From NCBI GenBank assembly GCA_024998685.1, contig JACOEH010000033.1, forward strand, positions 1 through 52,979: DNA of 52,979 nt. The letters run 5' to 3'. Each line of letters begins with the position of its first letter. Positions within the stretch are counted from its first letter, which is position 1. This document shows positions 3,332 through 41,629 of the stretch, piece by piece. Source of the DNA: Nitrospira sp. Its GTDB lineage: Bacteria > Nitrospirota > Nitrospiria > Nitrospirales > Nitrospiraceae. A program made the position numbers and the translations under genes. The notes under the pieces were generated by a model that was not told the origin of the DNA, made no database searches, and was given only the letters and a program-made list of their open reading frames with translations.

Positions 3332-3685
3332 CTATCCCTTGGGGCGAACGCGAATGCGGCCACGAGTCACCACCATCACTGCACCAGACTCCAATTCACT
3401 TCGATAGTGATTCAGAACTTCTTGCATTGCTGTGACTTGTTCTGAAACAGACAACTCGAGGAAGCGAATGATACCAGAATGAGGGCGACGCTGGACAGCA
3501 ACCAACTCCCCAAAATCCTTATCTTCTGTGATGACCATACTGCCGTCTTCATGCGCCATGGCTAATACGACTTCATCCGAAGCGCGAGGGTCGACTTCAC
3601 TCACAAGTCGAACATCGTGACCAAGCTCAACCAAAAGACGCCGAAGCGAGCGAGAAGAACAGCAGACATCAAGAAGAAACTTCAT
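3332..3685 (-). CDS. DUF5615 PIN-like protein, probable toxin of a DUF433/DUF5615 module
   Basis: Small 117-aa protein beginning MKFLLDVCCSSRSL, with a central VITEDKDFGEL segment. The early Asp and the T-x-D-x-DF motif are the acidic positions expected of the DUF5615 family, whose fold is PIN/Mut7-C-like and which commonly pairs with DUF433 antitoxins. Members are presumed RNases. Its ATG overlaps the stop of the upstream DUF433 gene by 4 bp (ATGA), which indicates translational coupling. The two likely form a VapBC-like type II module. Toxicity is inferred from family and gene arrangement, not seen. Confidence 0.85.
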   Translation of the reverse strand: MKFLLDVCCSSRSLRRLLVELGHDVRLVSEVDPRASDEVVLAMAHEDGSMVITEDKDFGELVAVQRRPHSGIIRFLELSVSEQVTAMQEVLNHYRSELESGAVMVVTRGRIRVRPKG

Positions 3686-4013: not shown

Positions 4014-4553
4014 TTATGACGATACCATCACCCACAGCCTGTAAAGCAACCAAACGACGAAGGCGATGGCGAGAAGTAGGGTCGCCACCGTCCCTCCGAT
4101 AATGCCGCTTACATAGAACCAATCAACAGCAGTCTCACGATCCGGCCTCATGGCGGCCTCGCGAAGCAATGCCGCATTTCTCGTGTGACTCCGAAACCAA
4201 ACTGAGAAGAGATCACCAAAAATTGGGATCGCGCCAATCGTCCCATTGATCAGCAGATTGAGGCTCATGCGAGCCACCACAATGCGGGGAAGTTGCAAGC
4301 GCGTCGCCAACCCGAGAATAATCGTGCCGATGAGATTGGCCAGAACATCGCCGATCCCAGGGATGAGACCGAGCAGCGGGTCCAAGCCGATGTACCACGA
4401 CGTGCCGGGAATCCTGACCGTCGTATCCATTATCTTGGCAAGCATGTCTGCAATCGTGAGCAAATGCTCACGCGCCTCGTCTCGTGGCAAGACCTCAATG
4501 GGCGATGTAGGTTGACGATGAGAGGCCGAGGTGGGCTGGTGGGGTGCCTTCAT
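4014..4553 (-). CDS. DUF4112 domain membrane protein
   Basis: About 179 aa. The ATG at 4553 is preceded by AGGAG at a good distance; a GTG at 4580 would add nine residues. The central part carries the DUF4112 pattern (DPLLGLIPGIGDVLANLIG, then LINGTIGAIPIFGDLF, repeated IPxxGD elements), and the C-terminus has a strong transmembrane segment (GGTVATLLLAIAFVVWLL). The function of the family is unknown. It lies directly upstream of the DUF433/DUF5615 pair on the same strand and may share a transcript, but nothing else links it to them. Confidence 0.85.
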   Translation of the reverse strand: MKAPHQPTSASHRQPTSPIEVLPRDEAREHLLTIADMLAKIMDTTVRIPGTSWYIGLDPLLGLIPGIGDVLANLIGTIILGLATRLQLPRIVVARMSLNLLINGTIGAIPIFGDLFSVWFRSHTRNAALLREAAMRPDRETAVDWFYVSGIIGGTVATLLLAIAFVVWLLYRLWVMVSS

Positions 4554-5481
4554 CAGACTCCTGTCACTGTACCAGATCACCGATCAAGAAATGCGGAGTC
4601 GAAGGCAGCCATCATACCCACCGCGCGATTGCAAGGCTAACAAATCCATCGCTGGCCCATCTTCTTAAGCCGGACGAGAAGAAGTCACCTTCTTGCATGA
4701 TCAGCCCAGTGGTGGCGATAGCGGCACAAAGCCTTTACGTCGTTGTTGTACTTGACCAAGAAATATCTATATGTAAAATTTCACTATTATCCATCCTGGC
4801 AAGACATTCATGCCCAAACTCATACTTAGAATAGCGGAGTTCAGTGAATTGCTGGCCCGCATGCAAACGCTACAAGCTCGAAAGGGCGTGGAGGCTGCGT
4901 TCAACGCCTCTCCAGAGAAATTGGGGCGCGCCGCGGTCGCGGCCGCCCAAAAGCCTCGCCCAAAGACCCTTCAACCGGCCGAGCACCGAAACTAAAACCG
5001 GTGCTGCACATGGAGCATGGCAGAATTCTCGGCCCGCCGGACCTGGCCTCCACGCCGAACTGGGCCAAACCGATCGTCGCCGCCTCGCTCAAGCTACACC
5101 GCCCGTAAATCCGCCAGAACTGAGCCTACTTACACATTCCCCACCTTGAACGCGCATACGACCGGTTCAGCAATCGAACATTTTCCGGGGCGACATGAGC
5201 AGTGCGAAACCTAACACAGAAGGTATAGGGATCAGCGTCTGGGCTGGTCCTCTACCCAGGCGGTGTCAGCAGATCGGCTATACTAGTCAACAGGACCCTG
5301 CGCGAATTCTTGTTGACACCATCGCGAAGAATTGGACCGGCGCGTACTTCCCGACAGATCACTGATGGACGCTCAGTAGTACATATCAATCCTGGGAGAA
5401 GTTTTGGCCCGCACCAGGTAGGACCCCCGCTGAGCTTCGAGTGCGCCAGGTCAAAGTTTGAAAAGAAAATGGAGTTTACCT
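4554..5481. other. Gene-poor stretch with possible gene remnant
   Basis: Over 900 bp without a convincing gene. A 61-codon ORF at 4810-4995 (+) and an overlapping open stretch in another frame at about 4845-5119 both look protein-like in part. The second encodes GRGRPKASPKDP, which resembles an AT-hook, followed by HMEHGRILGPPDLAS, but has no start codon. One explanation is a small DNA-binding protein broken by a frameshift near 4920. The rest (5120-5470) shows nothing recognisable apart from the leader of the next gene. Confidence 0.35.
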
Positions 5482-6936
5482 ATGCCACATCGAGTCTGGA
5501 GACCGACTTGCCAATGTCAGCCAGGCGTTATCACGAGAGGGACCCTACTTTGCTCTAACTGCAACATGCCAGGTGAGCCCGATGGTTGGTCGTTAAGTAT
5601 GATCGAGTCAATGGGCCGATACCAGCTGTTCTACGGATTGTCGCCGATCGGGCCGCATCGGAAATTGGCCGATCGGCTCTTTGATAAAATCGTCTCGACG
5701 TGTGAGTCCTGTCGAGGACGAGGCCTGCGTGATTCCACGACAATGGCGGATCGGTATGAGGGCTGCCCCGCCTGTCGGGGACTCGGCCGCATCTTCACAG
5801 CGCCAGAGTCCGTCATCGAGTCTGTGAGACAGCAAGTGCTTGCTGGGTATCCAAATGCCGCAGCGGATCGGAGCGACGGATTCATCTCGGCCACGCCGAC
5901 TAAGAAGTCGGCTCCCCCAGTCAGGAACCAAGCTGGATTAGGAAATAGAGTCCTGCAGGCCTTATCCGAAAGACTGCAGATAGACGAGGAATGGTCTATT
6001 CGCGGGCCGTGTGGGTTCACCTGGTGGGCACATCATCTCGCGCAGCGGGTGTGGATCGAACAAGTATCCGAAGATCGTGATTCTCCTGTAGTGCAGGTGC
6101 AGGCCGAAACGGCACTCCTCTGCCAGGTGCCGGACACGATGGCGAATCGGGCGCGTCTGAACCTCTCAAACAAGGCGGCAAGCCTCAATACCTATCGCTT
6201 TGATCCTCAGACCGGTCGGCTGACGCTTCGGTGTTGCGCCTATGTTACGCCCGAGACGGAGGGATGGCTCACCTCATTCTTGTCTGCCGCCATTGCCATT
6301 CAGGTTGCGGACGCACATATCAAAGGACAATCCGAATTCGCCCGGCTATTCGATGCCGAAGTCGATGTTTCCTCCCATCCGTCCTCCGGACGTCGGGAGG
6401 TCATGGACGACATGCTCAACGTGATAGAGGAGATGTTCGCACCGATGGGGCGGAGACCGTCTCCTTTCACCGAAGCCGATTTCGAATCACTGACGCACAT
6501 TTCGCTCGATGGCTTAGTCCTAACCAACGCTGATTCGAAAGGGGTGACCACAGAATTCCGCTTCAATGACGAGAAACCTGGACTGTTCTCGAGTGGCACG
6601 GCGCTGTGCGAAATTATTCCCACGAGCCATCCCCAACTTGGGAACGGTGTCCTTTGGAAGCTCACGCTTCCGCTTTATTGCACTGAGCGCGAGGCGATCG
6701 ACAAAGCCATCGAGCTCAACCTGGCAGAATACGACTACCCGATATGGCCCTATTTTTATGGATTCGGAGCCTGGTGTAGCGATCAGCGACTCAGAGCCGT
6801 CGCGTACATCATGTTTATGCCGGCGGCCGTCTATAAGCCAGGAATTTTGGTACCGTTCTTCTTGAGTATGCGTGCGAGAACGGAATGGGCCAAGCTCTAC
6901 CTGGCTGGTGCGCATGAACGACACGGAACGGCCTGA
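5482..6936 (+). CDS. Unknown protein with DnaJ-type zinc-finger motifs
   Basis: 484 aa. The ATG at 5482 was chosen because GGAG sits 7 nt upstream (5471-5474); a TTG at 5458 is the longer alternative. The N-terminus holds paired cysteines (about C10/C12 and C24/C27, the latter as LCSNC) and then two CxxCxGxG motifs, CESCRGRG near 74-81 and CPACRGLG near 95-102, like half of the DnaJ cysteine-rich domain. The remaining roughly 350 residues contain no motif I recognise; they look like a folded alpha/beta protein, with a C-terminal region vaguely reminiscent of YbjN or secretion-chaperone folds (weak inference). No J-domain (HPD) is present, so it is not DnaJ. It is isolated between a gene-poor region and an oppositely oriented defence-like helicase. 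Confidence 0.75.
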   Translation: MPHRVWRPTCQCQPGVITRGTLLCSNCNMPGEPDGWSLSMIESMGRYQLFYGLSPIGPHRKLADRLFDKIVSTCESCRGRGLRDSTTMADRYEGCPACRGLGRIFTAPESVIESVRQQVLAGYPNAAADRSDGFISATPTKKSAPPVRNQAGLGNRVLQALSERLQIDEEWSIRGPCGFTWWAHHLAQRVWIEQVSEDRDSPVVQVQAETALLCQVPDTMANRARLNLSNKAASLNTYRFDPQTGRLTLRCCAYVTPETEGWLTSFLSAAIAIQVADAHIKGQSEFARLFDAEVDVSSHPSSGRREVMDDMLNVIEEMFAPMGRRPSPFTEADFESLTHISLDGLVLTNADSKGVTTEFRFNDEKPGLFSSGTALCEIIPTSHPQLGNGVLWKLTLPLYCTEREAIDKAIELNLAEYDYPIWPYFYGFGAWCSDQRLRAVAYIMFMPAAVYKPGILVPFFLSMRARTEWAKLYLAGAHERHGTA

Positions 6937-7091: not shown

Positions 7092-10000
7092 TCATCTTCT
7101 ACGCGACGCTTTTCTCTTCTTTTCCTGAACACCTTGTAGGGATCTTCTTCCTTGCTGATCTCTTTTTGGATCACGCTCCTCTCTAGAGAGCCCGTTGCGA
7201 AATCTTTCTCGCTCTGCCCTTATCATGCTGATTGACCAATCACATTTGGTATCAGCCTGACTATTCTCGCAATAGAAATATGGGCCATATCTTCCATCGG
7301 CATAAACAGTTCGCGAACCACAACGTTCACATCGAGGGTTCTCGGGTTGTGTGACTTGACCAGCAGCTTTCTCGCCTGAATAGCGTCGTTTGGCCATCGA
7401 TGCAGCAAGAGCTTGAGCCAAGCCAGCATTAACCAAGCGCGTCATACTCTCTTCTGTTATATGGGCATGGCTGAGCGTATTTAGTGAACCATGCCAAACA
7501 ATTTCATTGTCTATCAACACAACCTTCTGATGAATCCTTGACCTGCAGTCGACCACACAGCCAATCCCTTCCAAAGCATCTAACGCTTGTTTGCCAGCAG
7601 ATGGTGGTATGCTGCCGTTCAAATACGGAGATCGGGTCACACAGCGAACTTTCACTCCCTCAGCAATCTTCATACGGAATAGTTCTCCATATTCTGCAAC
7701 CCTCCGAGGTGTCACAAAACCAGAAAAAATGACAACCCCTTTCTTGGCTTTGATGAAGTCCTCTCTAATAGCCGCATCGAAATTCTTCTCGTCAAATATA
7801 CCGAGTGACTCCGCTTGAACATCAAGCTTCAAATTCCCCAAGAGTCCCTTAAGATCGTTTTGTATTGGGCGCAATTCCAGCAAGGTTTTGCCAGAGATAA
7901 CCCGACCCTTCACCTGCATGTCATAGAGGATGGAACGTAATAGCGATGTGCTTGGCAGATGCTTATCAAGATGAGTTAGATTTGCAATCACAACAAGATG
8001 AGACTGTGCCCTGCTAACTGCAACATTAAGCAGTCTCGCGCCAATATGTGTCGGCGGCACCCCATGCACGAATTGACCAACGGTCCATGCTCCTCCATGA
8101 CTTTCAGGGATTTCCAAGACCATCATTTGACTTTCGTCACCTTGGTAACGATGAACCGTTCCGGCAGTAACTTGCTCGTTGAGGCCTTCACCTTCGAGTA
8201 GTTTTTTGATTAGCTTCGCTTGCGCTGCATAAGGGGTACAGATTCCGAGACGTTTTTTGCCTCCATTTATGTATCCAGATCTATTGAGATGCCATGCTAG
8301 ATTCCTAGCCAACAGAGCATGCATCAAATTGAATCGTGAACGGAAAGCCGTAACGCTTTCAAAAGGCCAAAGATCGGAGGTGTCGATGATGGTAAGCGTA
8401 CCGTTGAACGGTTCAGGTGGAGAAATATTCGGCGATTGTGGATTAACAACTTCTGTCTGGAGCTTGCCATCGTACATGGGACCAGAAATCAGATCGCAGA
8501 TGGCGGAATTCATTCTGTATTGAATGCTAAGCTGGACCGTCCCCTCATCATTCTCGTGATTCTCAAGGACGTCGTGCCCCAAGACATCGAAAACTGCTTC
8601 TTGTTCTGTTGGGACTATCGGTGGTAGCTGACGAGGATCCCCGCATACCACAACTCGTTCACGTGAAAATCCCGAGATAAACCAAATTATGGGTGGAATT
8701 ATCATTGAGACTTCATCTATCAACACCAGGTCAAACTGACCAAACTCTTTAGAGGACAAATAAGTCTTGGTACACGTAGCCCCAATGACCTTCGCCCCTC
8801 TCATAATCGAGGCGCTAAGTTCAGCAATCTTCGTCTCAATTTCTCTAAGTTCCTTAATCAACGACCCACGAAGTTTTTCTGCTTCTGCAATCTCTTTTTG
8901 AGCAGCATTTCGATCACACGTCCTCAGCGTTGTATTCAGCTGGTCGTAGTCGCGTTGGGTCGTAACCTGCCTTTCCTTGATTTCTTCTAGCAACGCCCTT
9001 ACCTCAACAAGCGAGCTCCATTGTTTTTCTTTGACACCCTTAACTTCTGCAATGTTTCGGGTAATTTCATCAATGCTTCGCTGGAACAATCCGAAGCGAG
9101 ACCTTTGCCGTTTTTTCATTTCTTCAGCTAGATCGCCTAACCTCTTTTCAAGACGATTGCTGTCATCTACTACCTTTTGATGTTGTTTGCGCTTTGCTTC
9201 TTCCTGCTTTGATAAATCTCGAATTTGACTTGTGACCGCATCAAGTTTCGCAAACCATTCAAACACTTGCCTCGCCTTTACCGTCTTCGCGTCAACCTCA
9301 CTGATACTTTCCTGTATAACTCGCTTTCGCTGTTCCAACTCATGCGATAGCCTTGAGATAATGCCTTCTATGCTGACATAATAAGCGTATTTTTCCTGCA
9401 AAAGATCATCCGCAATTCGCCCAACACGGACGACACGTCCCTCTTCCATAGCCATGTGGGTAGACCCAAGCTCGTCGCAGACCTTAAGTAACAATTGATC
9501 TAGCGCCTTGTTAGTGTTTGAGCAAATCAGCAATCGCTTATTTGCCTCCAGCGCAGAACGAACGATGGCGGCAAGAGTCGTTGTCTTTCCGCTACCTGGT
9601 GGACCCCAGATCCGAGTCACTGAAGCGCACAACGCTCTGTGCAAGGCCTGTAGCTGCTTTGCCTTGAGACGATTAGAAAGCGAATGTGAAGGAATTGCAT
9701 CGGGGTTTGGAGGTAGATCCGCACGACCTACGACTGCATCAGAAAAAGACCGGTTAACGGCAATTTCTCCCCCTTTTGTTTTCTCAAGTTTTTCCTTGAG
9801 TGCCTCCAGCAACGCGATCGCATCTATCAACAGAACGGCTCGGTGAATCAGTGAACCATGATCTCCGGAGATCGCCAGGAGCAATTTCCCAGCGCTTATA
9901 GATACGATTGATCCGTCCACTCTTTGTCCTTGTATCTCCACAGAAACTTGAGCGTCTTCAAATAATTCGGCCTCATCTGCAAAAGGAAATGCGTACAGAG

Positions 10001-10592
10001 CCTCTCCTTGTGGAAAATCTACTCGTGCACCGTTCTCAAGCTCATAGCGTGTCTGTCCGGAACCCGTTTTTTTGATATCGGTGATTAGGGCACCAAGCGC
10101 GGCTATGTATATATCAACAATATCGGCGTTTTTTGAAAGACCGAGGCTAAGATCTCTAGACTTTTCTCGTTCATACGGCCCAGGAAGCCCACCTGTTCCG
10201 GGAGGCCGGATTTTGGTGAAGGCTGGCGGTAGTTGAAGATCATCGGGAATTCTTATGTACTCATCCTCACGTTCCAAGGTTCTACTAGCGGTTGAAGTAG
10301 CTCCCTCGATAACATCATCGTAGTTGTCATTCAAAGCTTGGTTGAGGTCGGCATCTGCATCAAGCTGATCTTGGGCAGGCATACGAGTCTCAGGTGCGGG
10401 CAAGACGGACAATGAAGATCCATCACAACCTTTCAACTTCGTCCTTACCCTTTCAAGAAGCCTTTTGGCCTTGTTTGTACTCCTGTGAATTAGTTCGTCT
10501 CTAAGTTTCATTAGAATCTCGACGGATTCTCCCTTTTCAACAAAAAGATCTTCAAGTTCCTGGTACGAGTAATTAAAGAACGGACGCGACAT
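7092..10592 (-). CDS. UPF1-like SF1 helicase fused to a PLD-like nuclease domain and zinc ribbon (Mokosh type II-like defence protein)
   Basis: 1166-aa multidomain protein. Residues 1-300 are an accessory region. Walker A GPPGSGKT is at 330-337. A long coiled coil spans about 415-600. Motif II LIDEVS is at 624-629, then motif III GDPRQLPP, motif IV QYRMN, motif V HRYQGDESQ and motif VI AVSRAQSH. This is the COG1112 / DNA2-NAM7-UPF1 pattern. A phospholipase-D-like domain follows with the HxK core IHQKVVLIDN (His about 1021) and downstream HGSLN. A zinc ribbon (Cys about 1088, 1091, 1108, 1117) and a basic tail close the protein. Established knowledge: in type II Mokosh one gene fuses a COG1112 helicase with a PLD domain and gives anti-phage defence. 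The gene stands alone and is visibly more AT-rich than its neighbours, which suggests transfer. The domain calls are strong; the Mokosh assignment is inference. Confidence 0.88.
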   Translation of the reverse strand: MSRPFFNYSYQELEDLFVEKGESVEILMKLRDELIHRSTNKAKRLLERVRTKLKGCDGSSLSVLPAPETRMPAQDQLDADADLNQALNDNYDDVIEGATSTASRTLEREDEYIRIPDDLQLPPAFTKIRPPGTGGLPGPYEREKSRDLSLGLSKNADIVDIYIAALGALITDIKKTGSGQTRYELENGARVDFPQGEALYAFPFADEAELFEDAQVSVEIQGQRVDGSIVSISAGKLLLAISGDHGSLIHRAVLLIDAIALLEALKEKLEKTKGGEIAVNRSFSDAVVGRADLPPNPDAIPSHSLSNRLKAKQLQALHRALCASVTRIWGPPGSGKTTTLAAIVRSALEANKRLLICSNTNKALDQLLLKVCDELGSTHMAMEEGRVVRVGRIADDLLQEKYAYYVSIEGIISRLSHELEQRKRVIQESISEVDAKTVKARQVFEWFAKLDAVTSQIRDLSKQEEAKRKQHQKVVDDSNRLEKRLGDLAEEMKKRQRSRFGLFQRSIDEITRNIAEVKGVKEKQWSSLVEVRALLEEIKERQVTTQRDYDQLNTTLRTCDRNAAQKEIAEAEKLRGSLIKELREIETKIAELSASIMRGAKVIGATCTKTYLSSKEFGQFDLVLIDEVSMIIPPIIWFISGFSRERVVVCGDPRQLPPIVPTEQEAVFDVLGHDVLENHENDEGTVQLSIQYRMNSAICDLISGPMYDGKLQTEVVNPQSPNISPPEPFNGTLTIIDTSDLWPFESVTAFRSRFNLMHALLARNLAWHLNRSGYINGGKKRLGICTPYAAQAKLIKKLLEGEGLNEQVTAGTVHRYQGDESQMMVLEIPESHGGAWTVGQFVHGVPPTHIGARLLNVAVSRAQSHLVVIANLTHLDKHLPSTSLLRSILYDMQVKGRVISGKTLLELRPIQNDLKGLLGNLKLDVQAESLGIFDEKNFDAAIREDFIKAKKGVVIFSGFVTPRRVAEYGELFRMKIAEGVKVRCVTRSPYLNGSIPPSAGKQALDALEGIGCVVDCRSRIHQKVVLIDNEIVWHGSLNTLSHAHITEESMTRLVNAGLAQALAASMAKRRYSGEKAAGQVTQPENPRCERCGSRTVYADGRYGPYFYCENSQADTKCDWSISMIRAERERFRNGLSREERDPKRDQQGRRSLQGVQEKKRKASRRR

Positions 10593-10802
10593 AGCCTATC
10601 TCTCCTAAGAAATTCTAGGACCAAAGGATTCTCATTGTAGTCAACAGGACAAGCACTCCTGAAGATTCATAGTTTCCAGCAGAGCAAATAGCTTCAATCG
10701 AATCGTATCTTCAGTACATAGAACCGACAAGGAATACTGAATTCGCCTCTTTGCTCCTCGCGCAAGTCTCCGTTATAATCCTCGTTGCTCTTGAGCAAAC
10801 CC

Positions 10803-11639
10803 ATGACCACTGCCAATACTCAATATACTGAACGACTCCGTCAGTTGGCCGAACTGATGCTCGCCGTGTCGGGCGAATCGGTCACGATGATGAAGCGCAA
10901 TGCGCCGCAGCAGGCGATGAAGCTCAAGCGCCAGGATGAATGGAGCGTCTATCTGGAATTTCTCAAGATCATGTTCAATCTCACGGACCGGCTGGTGGCC
11001 TTGCACGTCCCGTTAAAAGACCAGATGGCATTCATGAACGGATTGGAAGACGCCGTGACGCAACAGTTGACGCGCGTGCTGGAGCCGGCGTTCGGGAACA
11101 ACGCGGATCAGATGGAAATCGTGTTGACGATCGGCACGACCGTGGCGGCAAGCCGACAGGCCTATGAGAGTTATAAATTCTTGATCTCCGAAGACTCCAA
11201 GACCAAGAATGAGATGTTCCGAGACTTCGGTGACAAAGTCGCCGAAACCCTCGGTGCTCCCGGCAACGCGCAGCTCAGTTCAGCGGCGATGCTCTGTGCG
11301 GATGCCGTCGTGCCGGCACTCAGCGCGGTCCTGCAAGGACAGGCTCCTCCCTCTCTTGACGCGTTGGAGAGTGCGCCCGCGTCCGTCACGAACGTCGCCG
11401 AACAAGAGAAAACGACCGGCCAGGAGATCAAGCTCGTCAGCTTGATGTCGAGCGTGTCGGGCGAAGAAGTGGAGACCCGTTGGGGCCTCCACCCACGGTT
11501 CCGTGAGGACCTCACTCCCTCCGAACTCCAACAACTCACCAAACTCCTAAATCGGGTCGCAAAAATCCTTGGCGAACGGTATGCCGCCGTGGCATTCTCC
11601 AAAGACTGGGCCTCGTGGCATAAGGCAGGGCATGCCTGA
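10803..11639 (+). CDS. Conserved hypothetical protein upstream of glucan phosphorylase
   Basis: 278 aa from the ATG at 10803; a TTG at 10785 is the alternative start and neither has a strong Shine-Dalgarno. There is no signal peptide or membrane segment. The N-terminal two thirds are helical (TERLRQLAELMLAVSG, DEWSVYLEFLKIMFNLTDRL), then a low-complexity Ala/Pro/Ser linker around 180-205, and a short C-terminal helical part (FREDLTPSELQQLTKLLNR). It lies about 65 bp upstream of the glucan phosphorylase on the same strand and could be cotranscribed. I do not recognise the family and see no catalytic motif. Confidence 0.75.
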   Translation: MTTANTQYTERLRQLAELMLAVSGESVTMMKRNAPQQAMKLKRQDEWSVYLEFLKIMFNLTDRLVALHVPLKDQMAFMNGLEDAVTQQLTRVLEPAFGNNADQMEIVLTIGTTVAASRQAYESYKFLISEDSKTKNEMFRDFGDKVAETLGAPGNAQLSSAAMLCADAVVPALSAVLQGQAPPSLDALESAPASVTNVAEQEKTTGQEIKLVSLMSSVSGEEVETRWGLHPRFREDLTPSELQQLTKLLNRVAKILGERYAAVAFSKDWASWHKAGHA

Positions 11640-11703
11640 TCCCGGCCTGTGATCGTCCGTCAGTGCCGATACCGATTGCGTGATCTTGACCAAAGGAGTG
11701 TTT

Positions 11704-13854
11704 GTGGATTCTCCTAATGTTGTGAACAGTTCTCTCCCGCAGAACCTCAACCGCCTGCCCGAGCTGGCGCAAAATCTCTGGTGGAGTTGGACGTTGGAAG
11801 CGCGCCAGCTGTTCGAAGTCGTGGACCCGACCTTGTGGTTTCTCACGAACCACAATCCGGTCAAACTTTTGTCTGATGTCAAACCGGACCGGTTGGCGCA
11901 TTTGGCCGAAGACCCGTCGTTCCTCCGGCAATACTCGGCGGTATTCCGCCTATTCGATGAGTATCTGGCCAATAAGAAGAGTTGGGCCGGAACGCACCAT
12001 GCCGATTTGACGAAGACCACCATTGCCTACTTCTCGGCAGAATTCGGATTGCATGCTTCCGTGCCGATTTATAGCGGCGGTCTCGGAATCTTGGCCGGAG
12101 ACCACTGTAAAGAAGCAAGCGACCTCGGCTTGCCGCTCGTCGGCATTGGATTCATGTACCCGCAAGGGTATTTCCGCCAGCGGATCACGCCGGAAGGTTG
12201 GCAAGAGGCGGCCTATGCCCCTTTCAACCGAGACGAATCTCCGGTTCATCCGGCCCTGACTCCGTCGGGAGAACCGTGCCGGTTTGCCGTTGAAATGGGC
12301 AGCCGTCATGTGATCGCGGCCGTCTGGAGAGTGCTGGTGGGACGGATCCCGCTCTTTCTCATCGATACGGATGTGCCGGAAAATAGCCCGGAGGACCGTG
12401 CTCTCTCCGCCCGTCTCTACGGCGGGGATCAAGAAATGCGGCTCTGTCAGGAAATTTTGCTGGGCATCGGCGGCGTGCGCATGTTGCGATCGCTCGGCAT
12501 CTCGCCGTCGGTCTGGCATGCCAACGAAGGTCATTCGGCCTTCCTCACTTTGGAGCGGGTGCGGGAGTTTGTTCAAAAGGGTTCGTCCCATGCGGAAGCC
12601 AGCGAGCTGGTCCGTCAGAGCACCGTCTTCACGACGCACACGCCCGTGCCGGCCGGACACGATGTCTTTCCACACTATCTGATGGATCGATATTTTTCAG
12701 GGTACTGGGAACAACTGAGCCTCTCGCGCGATGAATTTCTCCGTCTCGGTGAAACTCCAGAATCGAGCGGACAGGGTTTCAACATGACCGCGCTGGTCAT
12801 GCGCCTATCCGCCCACGTCAACGGAGTCAGCCGCGAACATGGCCGTGTGACTCGCGAGATGTGGCAGCACTTCTGGCCGGGGTTGCCGACCGACCAAATT
12901 CCCATCCGCAGTGTGACCAACGGCATTCATGCGCCGACGTGGGTCTCGCCGGAACTGCACCATCTGTACAGCAAGTCGCTCAGCCCGACCTGGACCCACA
13001 CCTGCGATGATCCGGCCATGTGGCAGCGAGTGATGGATGTCCCCGATCATGAGCTGTGGGCCGTTCGACAAACGATGAAGCGGAAACTGATGGGGTTTAT
13101 TCGTGAACGAGCCAGGGCCGGCTGGATGCACGGCCACCTGCAGCCCTCTCAAGTCCTCACGCGCGGCACTCTCTTGGATCCCGAGGCTTTGACCATTGGG
13201 TTCGCCCGGCGGTTCGCGACGTACAAACGGGCCACCTTGCTCTTCCGAGACCTGGACCGGCTGAAAGCGCTCCTCCAAGACCGATGGCGGCCGGTCCAAC
13301 TCATCTTCGCCGGCAAGGCTCACCCCGCCGATGAGCCTGGTCGATACTTCATTCACGAGGTGCTGAACTTTTGTCATGATCACAAACTGGGCGGCCGCAT
13401 CGCCTTCCTTGAAGATTACGAGATGCATATGGCGAAGTATCTCGTCCAGGGCGTCGACATTTGGTTGAACACCCCTCGTTTCCCGATGGAAGCCAGCGGC
13501 ACCAGCGGCATGAAAGCCGCCCTGAACGGCGTGTTGAACCTCAGCGTCCTCGATGGATGGTGGGTTGAAGGCTATAACGGAGCCAATGGGTGGGGCATCC
13601 AACCGCTGAGCGAACAGGCCGATGCGCAGGCCCAAGATCATCATGATGCCGAACAACTCTATCGCGTGCTGGAACAAGAAGTCGTGCCGCTGTTCTATCA
13701 GCATGATCGTGACGGGATTCCCCGGGGCTGGCTCCAAATGGTGAAAGAATGTATCCGTACCATCGCGCCCCAGTTCTGCACCACGCGCATGCTGAAGGAC
13801 TACGTCAGCCTGCTGTACCGCCCCGCCACGGTGCGGCTCCCGACGACATGGTGA
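11704..13854 (+). CDS. glgP: Alpha-glucan (maltodextrin/glycogen) phosphorylase
   Basis: PLP-dependent phosphorylase of about 717 aa that releases glucose-1-phosphate from alpha-1,4-glucans. It is the short bacterial/archaeal type (TIGR02094-like). The N-terminus LPELAQNLWWSWTLEAR, the central YFSAEFGLHASVPIYSGGLG, WHANEGHSAF, the RFATYKRA element and the PLP-site segment EASGTSGMKAALNG with its Schiff-base lysine all fit. I chose GTG 11704 because AAGGAG (11694-11698 region) ends 5 nt before it; a GTG at 11680 is in frame but lacks a ribosome site. The cytosolic role is storage-glycogen mobilisation. The stop codon abuts the dispersed repeat that begins at 13854. Confidence 0.96.
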   Translation: MDSPNVVNSSLPQNLNRLPELAQNLWWSWTLEARQLFEVVDPTLWFLTNHNPVKLLSDVKPDRLAHLAEDPSFLRQYSAVFRLFDEYLANKKSWAGTHHADLTKTTIAYFSAEFGLHASVPIYSGGLGILAGDHCKEASDLGLPLVGIGFMYPQGYFRQRITPEGWQEAAYAPFNRDESPVHPALTPSGEPCRFAVEMGSRHVIAAVWRVLVGRIPLFLIDTDVPENSPEDRALSARLYGGDQEMRLCQEILLGIGGVRMLRSLGISPSVWHANEGHSAFLTLERVREFVQKGSSHAEASELVRQSTVFTTHTPVPAGHDVFPHYLMDRYFSGYWEQLSLSRDEFLRLGETPESSGQGFNMTALVMRLSAHVNGVSREHGRVTREMWQHFWPGLPTDQIPIRSVTNGIHAPTWVSPELHHLYSKSLSPTWTHTCDDPAMWQRVMDVPDHELWAVRQTMKRKLMGFIRERARAGWMHGHLQPSQVLTRGTLLDPEALTIGFARRFATYKRATLLFRDLDRLKALLQDRWRPVQLIFAGKAHPADEPGRYFIHEVLNFCHDHKLGGRIAFLEDYEMHMAKYLVQGVDIWLNTPRFPMEASGTSGMKAALNGVLNLSVLDGWWVEGYNGANGWGIQPLSEQADAQAQDHHDAEQLYRVLEQEVVPLFYQHDRDGIPRGWLQMVKECIRTIAPQFCTTRMLKDYVSLLYRPATVRLPTTW

Positions 13855-23487: not shown

Positions 23488-25134
23488 ATGTATATGAGAT
23501 GGAATCGTATCTGCCTTGGACAACGGTTCATCACCGTCCTTCTCCTTGCCATCGGCTTGAGCTCCTACGGTTGCAAGGACTCCATATCGATTTCAGAAGA
23601 CGTACAAGTACCTCTCGCGAGCTTAACGGTCACTCCCGGCACACTTCAGCCAGGGTTTTTCAGCAATACCACCAACTATACGTTCAATGCGCCGACATCT
23701 GCTGACAAAGTGACCGTGACGGCCATCCCTAGGGACAACACAGCAACGGTAACGATCAATAATGCCGTAACCACTCACCTGTCCGTACCCCTCGGTGCAC
23801 CGGGATCGACCACCACAATCACCATCGCCTTGTCGTCATCGACCGGCACGGAAAGCACCTACACCGTCACGGTTACAAGATTGCTCTCGAGCGACAACAA
23901 TCTGTCGGCCTTGAGCGTGACCCAAGGCACCTTGAAACCCAGCCCCTTCGATGCGAACACGCTGGACTACACGGTGGATGTTCAGACTGGTGTCCCCTCC
24001 GTAACCGTCACCGCCACCAAGTCGGACGCGAATGCCACGATGCTGATCGGGTCTGTCACTGTCCCGGCAGGAACAAATCCAGGACAAGCACCCATTACAC
24101 TCAGCGCCCCCGGGACAACTACGCCTGTATCGATCGAAGTGACCGCTCCAAATGGCAGCAAGAAGACCTATAACCTTTCCATAAAACGACTCTCAGGAGA
24201 CATCAATCTATCGGCGTTGAGCGTGACCGCAAACTCCTTGGCTCATCCCGTCGATCTCAACACCCCACCGCCCTACACGGTAAATGTGGCCACGGATGTC
24301 ATCAGCGTGGATGTCTCAGCCACTAAATCCGATCCGAATGCCGTGATGGCTATCGGTAGCGTAACAGTCCCAGCAGGAACAGCATCCGGTTCAGCGCCCA
24401 ACATTCCGCTCGGGGCGCCAGGGTCAGACACACCTATATCAATCATTGTGACCGCTCAGAATGGGGTCGACAGCAAAACCTACACTGTCACGGTGCATCG
24501 CGCGACATCAGACGACAGCAACCTGTCTGCGTTGAGTGTGACCGCAAACTCCTTGGCTCATCCCGTCGATCTCAACACCCCACCGCTTTACACGGTAAAT
24601 GTGGCCACGGATGTCATCAGCGTGGATGTCTCAGCCACTAAATCCGATCCGAATGCCGTGATGGCTATCGGTAGCGTAACAGTCCCAGCAGGAACAGCAT
24701 CCGGTTCAGCGCCCAACATTCCGCTCGGGGCGCCAGGGTCAGACACACCTATATCAATCATTGTGACCGCTCAGAATGGGGTCGACAGCAAAACCTACAC
24801 TGTCACGGTGCATCGCGCGACATCAGACGACAGCAACCTGTCTGCGTTGAGTGTGGCACCGGGCTCCTTGGACCCCAGTCCCTTTGATCCGAGCCAGGTT
24901 AACTACACAGTGAATGTTGACAATAGCGTCAATAGCGTAGTGCTCACCGCAACGAAGTCCGATCCTCAAGCCACGATGTCTGCCTTGGGTTCGGTGATCG
25001 CGGCGCCAGGTGTCCCAGACGGTCAGGTATCGGTCACCTTGCTCGGAGCAACCACAGAGGTGGTCATCACTGTGATTGCCCAGGATATGACTAGTGAAAC
25101 CCGCTACACCATCACCGTAAACCAGGCGCCATAG
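23488..25134 (+). CDS. Cadherin-like beta-sandwich repeat lipoprotein 1
   Basis: 548 aa. A signal peptide ends with a lipobox-like SSYGC (Cys29) followed by the motif KDSISIS shared with its paralogues. Then five repeats of about 90-105 aa of the cadherin-like beta-sandwich type (PF12733-like pattern: LSALSVTxGTLxP, YTVNV, VTATKSDPNA, KTYTVTVxR). Repeats 3 and 4 are encoded by a 315-bp tandem duplication differing at two bases. The last repeat has the special form MSALGSVIAAPG, seen also at the end of lipoproteins 3, 4 and 5. Likely an extracellular or outer-membrane surface protein for adhesion or carbohydrate/protein binding; this is inference. Starts at 23488 and 23494 are both possible. 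Confidence 0.88.
   Translation: MYMRWNRICLGQRFITVLLLAIGLSSYGCKDSISISEDVQVPLASLTVTPGTLQPGFFSNTTNYTFNAPTSADKVTVTAIPRDNTATVTINNAVTTHLSVPLGAPGSTTTITIALSSSTGTESTYTVTVTRLLSSDNNLSALSVTQGTLKPSPFDANTLDYTVDVQTGVPSVTVTATKSDANATMLIGSVTVPAGTNPGQAPITLSAPGTTTPVSIEVTAPNGSKKTYNLSIKRLSGDINLSALSVTANSLAHPVDLNTPPPYTVNVATDVISVDVSATKSDPNAVMAIGSVTVPAGTASGSAPNIPLGAPGSDTPISIIVTAQNGVDSKTYTVTVHRATSDDSNLSALSVTANSLAHPVDLNTPPLYTVNVATDVISVDVSATKSDPNAVMAIGSVTVPAGTASGSAPNIPLGAPGSDTPISIIVTAQNGVDSKTYTVTVHRATSDDSNLSALSVAPGSLDPSPFDPSQVNYTVNVDNSVNSVVLTATKSDPQATMSALGSVIAAPGVPDGQVSVTLLGATTEVVITVIAQDMTSETRYTITVNQAP
24226..24855 (+). repeat. Tandem 315-bp duplication inside lipoprotein 1
   Basis: 24226-24540 and 24541-24855 are direct repeats, 105 codons each. 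Reading them side by side I find only two differences, adjacent bases in CCGCCCTAC versus CCGCTTTAC. The unit equals exactly one beta-sandwich domain plus linker, so the frame is kept. Such identity implies very recent duplication or gene conversion. Confidence 0.95.
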
Positions 25135-25282
25135 ATTGATGTAAATCGTTCTGCTCATCTATGTCCTTACGCCCAACTATCCAAGCGACAACACCCTGAC
25201 CATTGCCCCGCTCATATTCCCCGTCTGACCCGTCTCGAACCAGAGCCTTGATCTCACTAGGGAAGATCGGTTATAGATACGC

Positions 25283-25340
25283 CCCCTACTTTACCTATAC
25301 ACAAGTAGGGGTGGACCAATCTTTAGGTATTTCGTAATAT
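25283..25340 (+). promoter_or_regulatory. Palindrome plus shared promoter element, lipoprotein 2
   Basis: A perfect 9-bp inverted repeat CCCCTACTT (25283-25291) / AAGTAGGGG (25303-25311), 11-bp spacer, overlaps the shared 24-bp element (25298-25321). A -10-like TAATAT follows at 25335-25340. The ATG of lipoprotein 2 is at 25413. It could be an operator for a dimeric regulator or an RNA hairpin; as it lies upstream of the -10 box, DNA binding is more likely. Confidence 0.5.
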
Positions 25341-25412
25341 CCGCTCCTTCGTTGAGGTTCACCATCATGATGGACCCGACACTTCACGCCTCTGAAGAAA
25401 GAGACTAATCCC

Positions 25413-28223
25413 ATGGTAATGCGTACCGTGACCGTCGTGAGACAGTACCTCGCTGCCGTCTTTCTCATCGTAATCGGCTTGATGGCCCCTGGCTGCGGCG
25501 ACACAGCGTCGGTTAACCAGGGGGCGCAGCTTGCTAGTCTGACGGTCACCCCTGGAACACTCTCACCGACCTTTAGCGGTGGCACGACCCAATACAATGT
25601 CCAGCTTAACAGCAATGTCCAAAGTGTGACCGTCACTGCTCAGCCTGCCGTGGGGGGAGATACCGTCACTATCAATGGTCAGAACACGACGAGCAGCGTG
25701 ATTACTCTGGGCGCGGCGGGAACGACCACTCCGGTGAACATCGTCGTATCGGGATCGGGCGCGAATCCGGGAGGCTACACAGTGCATTTCGTTCGAGCCG
25801 GCTTAGCAGGTAACAATTCGTTACAGAGCCTGGCCGTTTCGCCCGGAACTCCGCCCATCGCATTCAATGAGAACACACTCAACTACACAGTCGATGTTGC
25901 CAACAATGTCGGAAGTATCACGGTAACCCCTACCCTTTCCGACACGGCTGCGACGATGACGGTGAACGGGCAACCCACGAACTCCGGACAGGCTCAGACC
26001 ATCACCCTCGGACCTGCAGGCCAACCCACGAATATCCCGATTGTCGTAACGGCCCAAAACGGAAATCCAAAAACATACCAGGTGACGGTGAGCCGTGGGG
26101 TATCAGGCAATAACAACTTGCAGAGTTTGGGTATTTCGCCGGGAGGCACGCTCACCCCGGCCTTCAGCGCCGACACAGTTGGCTATACGGTCAATGTCGG
26201 AAGCAATGTGAGTAGCATGACGGTGACCGCAGCCCCTCAGGATGGCACTGCGAGCCTGACAATCACGAGCCCGACAACCAATGGGCAGGGATCCAGTCCA
26301 CGTTCCATCACCCTTGAACCTGCAGGATCAAGCACACCGGTCTTTATAGTCGTGACTGCACAGAACGGCACTCAGAAAACCTACACCGTGGGTGTCAATC
26401 GCGCCGCCCTCGGCGGGAATAATAACCTGTCGGCCTTGACCGTGTCGCCTGGGACGTTAGCTCCCACATTCAATGCCAATACTCTCACCTATTCAGTCGA
26501 TGTCGCCAACAACGTCGAAAGCATCTCGGTCACGCCAACACGTCAGAATTCTACTGCAACGATCGCCGTGAATGGGCAAGCGGCGACTTCTGGGCAGGCT
26601 CGCACGATTCCCCTCAATCCTGCCGGACAAAGTACCAACATCACAATCGTCGTGACGGCACAAAACAGCAGTACCAAGCCCTACACCGTGACTGTGAGCC
26701 GGGGAATATCAGGCAATAATAACTTGCGGAGCCTAACCGTCTCACCGGGAACGTTAACACCGGCCTTCAACGCAGGCATACTCGCTTACACAGTGAATGT
26801 AGCAAGCACTATAACCAGCGTGACAGTAAGGCCAACCTTGGCAGATGTCACTGCGGGCATGACCGTGAATGGGCAAGCTACTAATTCCGGACAGGCCCAC
26901 ACCATTACATTGAATGAGGCTGGTTCGAACACTTTTGTCAATATCCTGGTGACCGCGCAGAACGGCACTCAGCGAACATACTCCGTGAATGTCACTCGTA
27001 CAGCCCTCGGCGGGAATAACAATCTGTCGACGTTGACCGTATCACCAGGTACCTTGGACTCTGCCTTCAGTGCGAACGATCTGAATTACACAGTGAATGT
27101 GGGAAGCGATGTGACCAGCGTGAATGTCTCTGCAACGAAGGCCGACCAGAATGCCGTGATGTCCGAGGATGTAACAGCCGCGGCAGGAACAGCAACCGGT
27201 CAGGCGACCATTCAACTCGGCGGGCCTGGAACAACCACGCCTGTGTTGATCAGCGTCACTGCTCCGAATGGAAACTCAAAGACGTACCGCATCAACGTGG
27301 TCAAAGCAGCGCTCGCGAGTAACAATAACTTGTCGGCATTGAGCGTGACACCCGGCACTTTAACTCCACGATTTGCGGCAGGAACGTTAGATTACTCGGT
27401 TAACGTAGGGACCGACGTCGACAGCGTGACCGTCACCGCCACCAAGGCTGATTCAAACGCAGTGATATCGGGCGATCTGCCCACTCAAGGCCAAGCGACC
27501 ATCCAACTTGACGGACCAGGTACTAGTAAGGCTGTGTCGATCATCGTCACAGCGCCTTCAGGAGCCCAAAAGACCTACACCATTACCGTCAACCGTGCAG
27601 CACCCGCGAGCAACAATAATCTGTCGGCATTGAGCGTGACACCCGGCCCCTTGTCCCCTGCCTTTGCCGCAGACACACTGGGCTACACAGTCAACGTCGC
27701 GAGCGACGTCACGAGCGTCGCCATCTCCGCGACTAAGGCGGACTCGAATGCGGTGATTTCAGGGGATGTCCCTAATAGCGGTCAGGCGAACATTACGCTC
27801 TCTGAGGCTACCACACCTGTATCTATTATCGTCACTGCGCCTAGTGGAGCTTCAAAGACCTACAGCATCGACGTTATCCGAGCAGCACCATTGGCGCCGC
27901 CGGCGCCGATAAGCGCGCCGGATTTGATCCCCCAGGATGACTCCGGATTCCTCCCCGGCCAGGATTCCGACAACATCACCAATGTCAACACACCAAGATT
28001 CAGAATATCCCAGCCAGGCTCGGGAGAAACTCCGAACCTCTATGTGGATGGTGTCAAAGTTGATTCGACTTTCAATCGAGGAGCCAACACCCTGAAGCCA
28101 ACGTCTGCGTTGAGTGACGGACAACACACGATTACCAGTACGGTGACCAATGCTGGAGGTGAGTCTCCACAGAGTCCACCCTTGCCTGTGACCATCGACA
28201 CTGTAGCCCCGGGATTCCCATAG
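25413..28223 (+). CDS. Cadherin-like beta-sandwich repeat lipoprotein 2 with C-terminal Bap-type Ig-like domain
   Basis: 936 aa, the largest of the array. Signal peptide with lipobox-like MAPGC (Cys28), then GDTASVN. Eight cadherin-like beta-sandwich repeats of 85-95 aa follow (each opening LxxLxVSPGTLxPAF and closing YTVTVxR). The last roughly 110 residues differ: SAPDLIPQDDSGFLPGQDS, NITNVNTPRF, LYVDGVKV, LSDGQHTITSTVTNAGG, VTIDTVAP, which is the pattern of bacterial Ig-like repeats in Bap/RTX-type adhesins. In those proteins the TIDTVAP element joins one Ig unit to the next; here the reading frame ends right after it. It is probably surface-exposed and adhesive (inference). Confidence 0.88.
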   Translation: MVMRTVTVVRQYLAAVFLIVIGLMAPGCGDTASVNQGAQLASLTVTPGTLSPTFSGGTTQYNVQLNSNVQSVTVTAQPAVGGDTVTINGQNTTSSVITLGAAGTTTPVNIVVSGSGANPGGYTVHFVRAGLAGNNSLQSLAVSPGTPPIAFNENTLNYTVDVANNVGSITVTPTLSDTAATMTVNGQPTNSGQAQTITLGPAGQPTNIPIVVTAQNGNPKTYQVTVSRGVSGNNNLQSLGISPGGTLTPAFSADTVGYTVNVGSNVSSMTVTAAPQDGTASLTITSPTTNGQGSSPRSITLEPAGSSTPVFIVVTAQNGTQKTYTVGVNRAALGGNNNLSALTVSPGTLAPTFNANTLTYSVDVANNVESISVTPTRQNSTATIAVNGQAATSGQARTIPLNPAGQSTNITIVVTAQNSSTKPYTVTVSRGISGNNNLRSLTVSPGTLTPAFNAGILAYTVNVASTITSVTVRPTLADVTAGMTVNGQATNSGQAHTITLNEAGSNTFVNILVTAQNGTQRTYSVNVTRTALGGNNNLSTLTVSPGTLDSAFSANDLNYTVNVGSDVTSVNVSATKADQNAVMSEDVTAAAGTATGQATIQLGGPGTTTPVLISVTAPNGNSKTYRINVVKAALASNNNLSALSVTPGTLTPRFAAGTLDYSVNVGTDVDSVTVTATKADSNAVISGDLPTQGQATIQLDGPGTSKAVSIIVTAPSGAQKTYTITVNRAAPASNNNLSALSVTPGPLSPAFAADTLGYTVNVASDVTSVAISATKADSNAVISGDVPNSGQANITLSEATTPVSIIVTAPSGASKTYSIDVIRAAPLAPPAPISAPDLIPQDDSGFLPGQDSDNITNVNTPRFRISQPGSGETPNLYVDGVKVDSTFNRGANTLKPTSALSDGQHTITSTVTNAGGESPQSPPLPVTIDTVAPGFP

Positions 28224-28464
28224 TCCCAGGGATGATAGAGGCGGGCATGCCGCCGGCTGTGTCCGTTTTGAACTACACGCACATCGGCTCACCACGTTTC
28301 GATTCGACGTCTTGACCTCCCCGGTAGGATTGGCTATACCTTTAATCCCTGCTTCGGCCATGTAGAGACAGGACCCTCTCGTCGTCTCCATACCTCGCGA
28401 TTGGGTTCGCCAATACAAACAGGCTCATCGCTCCTTGTATCGAACGACCAGGAACGGCACCACC

Positions 28465-30078
28465 ATGAAACATGTTCGACCCATCGCCGGCCCTTTTTGG
28501 TCCGCCGTTCTTGTCGTTGCGATCGGTGTGAGTTCATACGGCTGCAAGGACAGCGCGTCGATCTCGGACGCGCCGATCGCACCGCTCTCCAGCTTGACGA
28601 TCACTCCGGGATCGCTTCAACCGTCATTTTCCACTAATACCACCAGCTATACAGCGGATGTGGCAGCGACAGTGACGACCGTCACCGTAACGGCCGGCCC
28701 CAAAGACAGCACAACGACCATGACGATCAACGGGGTCAACACAGGACCGGGGCAGCCGCGCATTATCTCGCTTAATCAGTCCGGACCAACCACGGACATC
28801 ACGATTGTCTTGACGGGGCAGACCGGGAATCAGAGCACTTACGACATTGTCGTCCGTAAAGTCGACAACAACCTCTCGGCGTTGACCATCACTCCAGGCC
28901 AATTGGTTCCGGCTTTTACTCCAAGCACGCTCGCGTACGGAGTAGACGTGGCCAGTGGCGTCACCAGTGTGAGCCTCTCCGCGACCAAGGTCGATCCCAA
29001 TGCCGTGATGTCCGGAGCGGTGACCGCCGGGCCAGGACTTACAACAGGGCAAGCGACCATTCCACTGAATGGGCCAGGGACAGCCACAGATGTGTCGATC
29101 ACGGTGGCCGTCCCGAATAGCGACGCAAAGACCTATACCATCACCGTGCACCGCGCAGCGCTCTCGAGCAACAATAATTTGTCGACCTTGATCGTGACAC
29201 CGGGCAGCCTTTCTCCAGCCTTCGATTCAAACCAGCTGACTTACACGGTGGACGTCGGCAGCGGCATCACCAGCGTGGACGTGACCGCAACCAAAGCCGA
29301 TCCGGACGCCGTGATCTCAGGCGATGTGCCCAATCAAGGACGAGCGACCATCCCACTTGACGGGCCGGGGACCAACAAGGTCGTTTCGGTCACTGTGACA
29401 GCGCCGAATGGCAACTCCAAAACGTATCGCATCACGGTGAACCGCGCAGCGCTCTCCAAGGACAACAATCTCTCGGCATTGAGCGTGACGTCGGGGACCT
29501 TGACTCCTGCCTTTTCTGCAGGAACCCAAGCTTACACCGTAGACGTTGCCACCGCTGTGACCGCCGTGACGGTCACAGCGACGAAATCCGACCCGAACGC
29601 TGTGATGTCCATCGGCAGTGTGACGGTGGCAGCAGGGACGGCAACCGGACAGGCAACCATCACACTGATGGGGCCAGGAACGACCACCTCCGAGTCGATT
29701 ACCGTCACTGCCCCCGATGGAACGCCAAAGACCTACACAATCGGCGTGAACCGGGCAGCCCCTTCAACTGACAACAATCTCTCTAAGTTGACCGTGAGCG
29801 CGGGTTCCTTAGTTCCCGCCTTTGCCTCTGGCACACCGAACTATAGTGTGGACGTGTCTGCGGCCAGCGACACAATAACCGTCAGTGCGACCAAGTCCGA
29901 TCCGAATGCCGTGATGTCTGCGTCCGGTTCGGTGATCGCTGCTGCAGGAATCCAGGAAGGCCAAGTGACCGTCCCACTGGGACTCGGAATGAGCACACCT
30001 GTGGCAATTACTATCACCGCACAGGATGGAATCAGCACAAAGGTCTACACCCTTACCGTGAATCGACCGGCCCGCTAA
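28465..30078 (+). CDS. Cadherin-like beta-sandwich repeat lipoprotein 3
   Basis: 537 aa from the ATG at 28465 (AGGA about 10 nt upstream); the frame is open to 28435 but that start splits the signal peptide badly. Lipobox-like SSYGC (Cys27), then KDSASIS. Five cadherin-like beta-sandwich repeats (openings LSSLTITPGSL, LSALTITPGQL, LSTLIVTPGSL, LSALSVTSGTL, LSKLTVSAGSL). The final one is the capping form with MSASGSVIAAAG. Its leader shares the GGACCCTCTCG segment with lipoproteins 1 and 5 but lacks the 24-bp element. Confidence 0.87.
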   Translation: MKHVRPIAGPFWSAVLVVAIGVSSYGCKDSASISDAPIAPLSSLTITPGSLQPSFSTNTTSYTADVAATVTTVTVTAGPKDSTTTMTINGVNTGPGQPRIISLNQSGPTTDITIVLTGQTGNQSTYDIVVRKVDNNLSALTITPGQLVPAFTPSTLAYGVDVASGVTSVSLSATKVDPNAVMSGAVTAGPGLTTGQATIPLNGPGTATDVSITVAVPNSDAKTYTITVHRAALSSNNNLSTLIVTPGSLSPAFDSNQLTYTVDVGSGITSVDVTATKADPDAVISGDVPNQGRATIPLDGPGTNKVVSVTVTAPNGNSKTYRITVNRAALSKDNNLSALSVTSGTLTPAFSAGTQAYTVDVATAVTAVTVTATKSDPNAVMSIGSVTVAAGTATGQATITLMGPGTTTSESITVTAPDGTPKTYTIGVNRAAPSTDNNLSKLTVSAGSLVPAFASGTPNYSVDVSAASDTITVSATKSDPNAVMSASGSVIAAAGIQEGQVTVPLGLGMSTPVAITITAQDGISTKVYTLTVNRPAR

Positions 30079-30146
30079 AATCCTGAATCATCCTCCCGTT
30101 TCAAGGTCCAACTGAGGATCAAGCTTGCGCATATCCTGCTAGCTTA

Positions 30147-30190
30147 TACGCAAGTAGGGATAGACCGATCAGGAAGCCCTTTTGTAATAT
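30147..30190 (+). promoter_or_regulatory. Candidate promoter with shared 24-bp element, lipoprotein 4
   Basis: Element 30147-30170 (core GCAAGTAGGGATAGACCGAT, nearly identical to that of lipoprotein 1) and a -10-like TAATAT at 30185-30190, 95 bp between element and ATG. The phrase TTGTAATATCCGC is shared almost exactly with the leader of lipoprotein 2. Confidence 0.5.
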
Positions 30191-30265
30191 CCGCCCCGAC
30201 CCTTATGGTTCACGGGTGGCTGGACCCAACAGGATATCCAGCAAGAGAACATAGTTGGATCCAGC

Positions 30266-31276: not shown

Positions 31277-31625
31277 ACAGCGCCGAACTTCGGAGCTAGA
31301 GCTAATACCAGTCTTCCTTGGCTTACCGATATCCATGGTTCTTGCGATTCATCATGCTGACATTTCCACACATTGAGGCAACTCATCCCCGCAGTGAGTA
31401 GACGATCCGCGAGACAATGGCTTACCGGTCAACGAAGGTGATTCCCTCTCGTATCATGAGTGCCTTCATATCTCCCGATGCGATCTGTTGACCCACCTGG
31501 TTGAATCGGTTATAGAATGACCGCTGCTCGGCCTCGTGAAAGTCCTGACAGCCAGATTTTGAACCCTCTCGTAGTCTCGACGCCTCGAGCTTGGGTTTAT
31601 CAGAAGAGCCGGACAATTCATTTTC
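31277..31625. other. Intergenic leader of lipoprotein 5
   Basis: About 350 bp with no gene. Near 31563-31580 it repeats the ACCCTCTCGTAG segment found in the leaders of lipoproteins 1 and 3. The 24-bp element of lipoproteins 1, 2 and 4 is not recognisable here. Confidence 0.45.
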
Positions 31626-31655
31626 ATGTATCAAGAGACGGTGACCTGCTTCATC

Positions 31656-41356: not shown

Positions 41357-41629
41357 ATGAAGAAATCGAACACCGTCCAGGCGGAGAGCACGGTGACGGC
41401 GACCAAAGCCAAGGCGAGTTTTTCAGCCGTCTTAGCGAGAGCCGGCTATCAGGGAGAGCGGATCGTGATTAAAAAAGGGGCGCGCCCGACCGCCGTCATT
41501 CTGGGTTATGCTGACTATCAGCGGCTGGTCGATTTAGAAGATCGTTACGAGTCCGCCCTTCTGACGAGAAGCCTCAAGGACGATCGATTTCTGACCCTCG
41601 ATGATGTGACCACGCATCTTGGCCTGTGA
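41357..41629 (+). CDS. Phd/YefM-family antitoxin
   Basis: 90 aa. The N-terminal Phd/YefM DNA-binding fold is seen as VTATKAKASFSAVLARA and ERIVIKKGARPTAVILGYADYQRL, with an acidic, probably disordered toxin-neutralising tail (LKDDRFLTLDDVTTHLGL). Its stop overlaps the toxin start by 4 bp (GTGA). It should repress its own promoter together with the toxin. Confidence 0.92.
   Translation: MKKSNTVQAESTVTATKAKASFSAVLARAGYQGERIVIKKGARPTAVILGYADYQRLVDLEDRYESALLTRSLKDDRFLTLDDVTTHLGL

Follow-up and report, generated by a model that had tools for sequence, protein, structure and literature searches.

The window protein described in this study is probably a one-gene, horizontally acquired nuclease directed against invaders, most likely phages, in which a UPF1-like SF1 helicase is fused to a PLD nuclease domain and a zinc ribbon. 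The window is the whole stretch of DNA that was analysed, 52,979 nucleotides of a Nitrospira sp. contig. We consider this function probable because motor, nuclease and zinc finger are fused, the gene was apparently acquired, and the slot that it occupies holds anti-invader genes elsewhere. Helicase-PLD-zinc ribbon proteins apparently form an unnamed family; no paper on such a family was found in the literature searched, and "unnamed" is meant within that scope.

Domain architecture of the window protein

The window gene is an intact ORF with an ATG start on the minus strand (7092-10592) and encodes 1166 aa. The preliminary description had read one ORF here with helicase, PLD domain and zinc ribbon in that order, the ORF is exactly as given there, and the domain order holds. 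The gene and its parts are as follows.

7092..10592, minus strand: helicase-PLD-zinc ribbon gene, whole (ORF, Pfam, PADLOC, AlphaFold)
9680..10592, minus strand: N-terminal region, residues 1-304 (AlphaFold secondary structure, VIA-align)
7875..9668, minus strand: UPF1-like helicase core, residues 309-906, including the coiled-coil stalk 417-599 (AAA_11/AAA_12, IGHMBP2/UPF1 structure matches, motifs)
7395..7790, minus strand: PLD-like nuclease domain, residues 935-1066, catalytic H1021, K1023 and N1038 (PLDc_2, domain model, conservation)
7239..7331, minus strand: C4 zinc ribbon, residues 1088-1118, with C1088, C1091, C1108 and C1117 (family conservation, Zn_ribbon_Top1)

Pfam matches above the gathering cut-off were AAA_11 (residues 309-660, 112 bits), AAA_12 (682-871, 86 bits) and PLDc_2 (948-1066, 30.7 bits, cut-off 27). 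The AlphaFold model of the whole protein, built with 34 sequences, had a mean pLDDT of 83.7 and a pTM of 0.73. The N-terminal region consists of helices (10-56), a disordered stretch (59-121), a helix (158-176) and a beta domain (180-257) that occupies the UPF1-type 1B position. The protein has the full set of parts of a UPF1-like SF1B helicase: RecA1 with 1B and stalk, RecA2, and motifs I-VI, with motif positions at residues 330 (GPPGSGKTT), 356, 622 (containing DEVS), 648, 689, 809 and 854. Residues 150-907 of the model matched IGHMBP2 (Z 29.0, 565 residues, rmsd 4.9) and UPF1 (Z 28.0, 552 residues, rmsd 3.8), and the VIA-align alignment to these two begins at about residue 150. Long coiled-coil helices were modelled at 417-599. 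UPF1-like helicases are known to carry a coiled-coil stalk inserted in RecA1 (PMC11090510). The central coiled coil noticed in the preliminary description is therefore present, not as a separate domain but as the usual RecA1 stalk of these helicases.

The PLD motif IHQKVVLIDNEIVWHGSLN begins at residue 1020, and the protein contains one H-x-K...GSLN motif (residues 1021-1038). The HxK(x)4D(x)6GS motif and the fold, one per chain, are those of the one-HKD PLD nucleases of the Nuc/Zucchini type. When the C-terminal part was modelled separately, the pLDDT was 91.7. The PLD domain model matched Nuc (1byr; Z 13.3, 137 residues, rmsd 2.3), followed by SauUSI (Z 13.1), NucT (13.0), mouse Zucchini (12.3) and BfiI (12.0), and PLD3/PLD4 were also among the matches, PLD3 within Z 12-13. 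Nuc and Zucchini have one HKD per chain and function as dimers, so the single HxK of the window protein is ordinary; MkoC, the type II Mokosh protein, likewise has a single HxK. The earlier remark that only one clear HxK is visible was correct as a count, and the arrangement is not unusual.

The CxxC...C...C pattern at 1088-1117 is the zinc ribbon of the window protein. Among 34 aligned family members, the first and third cysteines were kept in all 34 and all four in 30, and Zn_ribbon_Top1 was matched in 25; many members carry a second ribbon. Because the cysteines are nearly invariant and the Pfam domain is common, the ribbon is typical of the family and not an extra, as had been supposed. 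The PLD site was kept to a similar degree, with K, D, G, S, N and E in 34/34, H in 33/34 and PLDc_2 in 34/34. Conservation of both motifs across these members indicates that they did not arise by chance.

Family spread and relation to type II Mokosh

The family was found by profile search with one genome per species, which gave 80 loci, approximately 40 of them spanning the helicase-PLD length. Single-sequence searches of genome contigs and viral contigs returned no relatives. Members are deeply diverged and span about a dozen phyla, including Nitrospirota, Thermodesulfobacteriota, Verrucomicrobiota, Planctomycetota, Acidobacteriota, Chloroflexota, Bacillota, Gemmatimonadota and Pseudomonadota, and Latescibacterota has relatives of the helicase core. 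Two members in a common chromosomal setting (L056, 3587-6247; L061, 2135-4786) have a PLD domain without the catalytic His, Lys and Asn and have no zinc ribbon. Since these PLD domains lost their catalytic residues, some members may act otherwise, and these two are possibly repurposed. In genome G261 (L015, 5867-6130), the N-terminal linker of the homologue contains a single in-frame TGA, which is either an assembly error or a sign of a broken gene. An internal TGA flagged in G039 was rejected, as the stop is the end of the ORF.

The preliminary description had identified the gene as type II Mokosh. The window protein does have the layout of MkoC, in which a one-HKD PLD comes after a UPF1-like (COG1112-like) helicase in a single chain, as judged by Pfam, the model and colinear hhalign. 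One explanation is therefore that it is a divergent but true MkoC: helicase and PLD would have fused once in a common ancestor, and the zinc ribbon would have been a later gain or loss. Profile-profile alignment of the family with MkoC by hhalign was colinear from RecA2 through the linker to the PLD (416 columns, probability 100, 21% identity), which makes the two remote relatives of like layout.

The scores argue against membership. PADLOC profiles were calibrated with proteins from plasmids, namely MkoC of Vibrio and Agrobacterium and a cyanobacterial MkoA. On the MkoC profile PDLC03924, the true MkoC proteins reached 1414 bits (Vibrio) and 1235 bits (Agrobacterium), covering 4-1135. The window protein reached 139.6 bits, a tenth of the score of true members, in two partial stretches, the best at 856-1104 of 1136, so a full-length match was not obtained. 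This value is near the 103 bits of the true MkoA on the same profile; that MkoA scored 719 bits on its own. The best-scoring PADLOC profile for the window protein was in fact MkoA (177.2 bits), and MkoA also exceeded MkoC at four other family loci. All 34 family members matched MkoC only at the level of the window protein (best E 6e-51). In the reverse direction, MkoC had the lowest score on the family helicase-core profile of the UPF1-like helicases compared (approximately 80-90 bits), against 135-197 bits for MkoA and 330-420 bits for the nearest helicase-only relatives.

The zinc ribbon also separates the two, as no CxxC was found in three MkoC proteins examined. In the helicase tree, MkoC forms a separate long branch outside the clade of the window protein (SH-aLRT 100). 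A constraint joining the family and MkoC in one clade was rejected (p-AU 0.002), a test weakened by long branches and by a constraint that also shuts out Aulosira and the helicase-only rows. A wider clade of MkoC, the family and the nearest helicases was not rejected (p-AU 0.17). With scores, ribbon and tree taken together, we consider it unlikely that the window gene is a true type II Mokosh, and that identification was not retained.

Genomic hotspot and neighbouring genes

The preliminary description had called the gene AT-richer, and the GC profile bears this out. Its GC content is 46.8%, against a mean of 56.1% (sd 2.5) for the genes of the window, and its GC3 is 42.8% against 64.0% (sd 5.8), so that both lie about 3.7 sd below the mean. 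No full-length match was found in 34 other genomes of the same genus, and strong matches occurred in 5 of the 395 genomes of the phylum, the window's own counted. Two congeners carry a related SF1 helicase of approximately 870-900 aa in ICE-like regions, without PLD and with 28% identity. The slot around the gene contains the following features.

4014..4580, minus strand: DUF4112 gene, left border marker of the hotspot (syntenic in the genus)
4834..5144, plus strand: decayed Phd-like antitoxin/zeta-toxin remnant (blastn, 72-86% identity to toxin-antitoxin genes of five congener loci)
5458..6936, plus strand: 492-aa gene with a DnaJ-like zinc motif, in the same slot and convergent (ordinary GC)
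10785..11639, plus strand: 284-aa conserved gene, right border marker of the hotspot (syntenic in the genus)
11680-13854: DUF3417 phosphorylase, beyond the 284-aa marker (syntenic in the genus)

The hotspot is empty in eight congeners, with the markers 160-340 bp apart, and holds 0.8-8.6 kb of different DNA in 13 others. The cargo is an OLD-family nuclease with an Mre11/SMC-like pair in one of the congeners, a type III R-M system with a Fic protein in another and an NB-ARC protein in a third. The commonest cargo is a Phd antitoxin/zeta toxin pair, present in several congeners; it is intact at the same site there and survives in the window as the remnant. The 492-aa gene is the sole other intact gene in the slot. 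It is not a known defence gene, had no significant relative at any other locus fetched, and is probably not a partner of the helicase gene. The guess that this is a horizontally acquired defence gene holds, supported by foreign composition, patchy distribution and the hotspot.

Several other genes were observed in the window. Positions 3332-3685 hold a DUF5615 PIN-like gene. Genes for Phd-like antitoxins lie at 41357-41629 and 42257-42544, and the latter overlaps a PIN-like gene (42541-42978). At 23488-32642 there are five paralogous genes in tandem for putative lipoproteins, which have in common an 'LxxTPGTLxPxF...TTxYT'-like repeat.

The neighbours of relatives were looked at because they were recurrent, and are given here as examples. 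No single neighbour is shared by the majority of family members, and the protein therefore probably acts by itself. At many family loci, no defence gene could be recognised in the vicinity. Two loci have a PDC-S35 TIR protein, a PDC-S09 nucleotidyltransferase and a HEPN-like gene (the HEPN recognised by eye). Type IIG methylases adjoin the family gene at three loci, one of which also has a DpdE-like helicase. A UvrD-PDDEXK helicase-nuclease with a type III methylase was found at L030/L016. WYL-type regulators were found at two loci, and their relatives at two more.

Five relatives (L022, L024, L044, L046 and L047) have lost the PLD-zinc ribbon from the helicase core. They lie in a Gemmatimonadota/Latescibacterota subclade nested within the family, and their core is approximately 44-54% identical to that of the window protein. 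In L046 (754-6411), the core forms a fusion with RQC-HRDC and a full PsyrT (980 bits), and PsyrA (485 bits) comes next. In L022 (8578-15940), the core has an unknown C-terminal domain and is followed by PsyrT (982 bits) and PsyrA (478 bits). Over the relatives' loci, PsyrT scored 980-982 bits and PsyrA 439-485 bits. The arrangement in L046 and L022 is a possible three-part PsyrTA variant. A 'PFGLPLEAGPLxGIxLG' domain forms the helicase C-terminus in L022, L024 and L044 and the N-terminus in L047; in L022 it matched no Pfam family.

Very few carriers of the family were found among viruses or plasmids: the phage and plasmid collections searched gave distant helicases only, plus two Nostocales plasmid relatives. 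Mobility was therefore deduced from the hotspot and from the copy in genome G194, which is flanked by serine recombinases and lies near a transposase-like gene. The setting of that copy, together with the toxin-antitoxin pairs that congeners hold in the window slot, would also suit a factor that serves a mobile element or competes with rival plasmids and ICEs, and is not anti-phage. The window slot has no transfer genes, however, and most of the neighbours that were recognised in other phyla belong to anti-phage systems, which makes such a role quite improbable in our view. UPF1, SEN1, IGHMBP2 and DNA2 are housekeeping helicases, and the preliminary description had allowed for a better match to such a family at the same locus in all relatives; a strong Mokosh match was indeed missing, but no housekeeping helicase was found at that locus in relatives. 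A cellular helicase-nuclease for RNA or DNA processing or repair, which the fold common to UPF1/IGHMBP2 would permit, is very unlikely, because the gene is patchy hotspot cargo of foreign composition, is missing from nearly all close relatives at the same locus, and has defence genes beside some of its relatives.

Proposed function and comparison with known systems

The defence reading of the window gene is thus the likely one. The analysis shows a UPF1-like motor whose ATPase motifs are intact, joined to a nuclease that keeps its catalytic residues and to a conserved zinc ribbon. We infer the anti-phage activity, the dimerisation, the substrate choice and the self/non-self trigger of the window protein. 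The helicase would load onto single-stranded nucleic acid of the invader, either transcripts or ssDNA replication intermediates, and would travel along the strand using ATP, while the zinc ribbon may contribute to the grip on nucleic acid. Like Nuc and Zucchini, two copies would pair through the one-HKD PLD domains and so form a single active site, which would cut the strand. By analogy, the protein may work like type II Mokosh, with helicase and PLD in one chain. Degradation of viral transcripts has been proposed for Mokosh (PMC11291487) and could be a fair model here, with RNA or ssDNA as the possible substrate. Direct cutting seems preferable to a two-part abortive system, as no partner or toxin-antitoxin layout was seen.

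It is conceivable, though we offer it tentatively, that the widespread UPF1-like helicase is a reusable infection sensor that is joined to different effectors, a PLD-zinc ribbon here and PsyrT or the 'PLEAGPL' domain in Latescibacterota/Gemmatimonadota, and that the helicases of Mokosh and CoCoNuT follow this logic in parallel branches. Since the effector is naturally exchanged in these proteins (PLD-zinc ribbon, PsyrT), a possible role of UPF1-like helicases as infection sensors in Mokosh- and CoCoNuT-like immunity can be tested directly. A broad, apparently unnamed family is added to the helicase-PLD defence class, and tools are likely to miss its members or label them Mokosh. The defence hotspot marked in a Nitrospirota genus is a place to seek cargo of unknown function.

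Among known systems, type I Mokosh (MkoA and MkoB) also combines a UPF1-like helicase with a PLD. It differs from the window gene, which has no serine/threonine kinase domain and no separate MkoB gene, no PLD being found among the tested neighbours. The CoCoNuT helicases CnuH and CnuE are likewise UPF1-like with a large coiled-coil insertion, and occur together with, or in fusion with, various nucleases, PLD included (Bell et al. 2024, PMC11090510). CoCoNuT of types II/III has McrB/McrC-type partners (CnuB/CnuC), whereas no McrB/McrC-like gene was found among the tested window neighbours. The PLD of CoCoNuT (type III-C) is a double domain that follows a wHTH. The PLD restriction enzymes SauUSI, BfiI and NgoAVII have a similar nuclease fold (Z 10-13) with other motors or sensor domains; in SauUSI and BfiI the matched PLD part is N-terminal, whereas the PLD of the window protein follows the helicase. 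PsyrTA is linked to the family through some helicases that stand ahead of PsyrT or form one protein with it, PsyrA being the following gene; the window gene stands without PsyrTA and carries its own PLD-zinc ribbon. On sequence grounds, the window gene is 'Mokosh-II-like, separate UPF1-helicase/PLD/zinc-ribbon family', and this label replaces 'Mokosh type II'.
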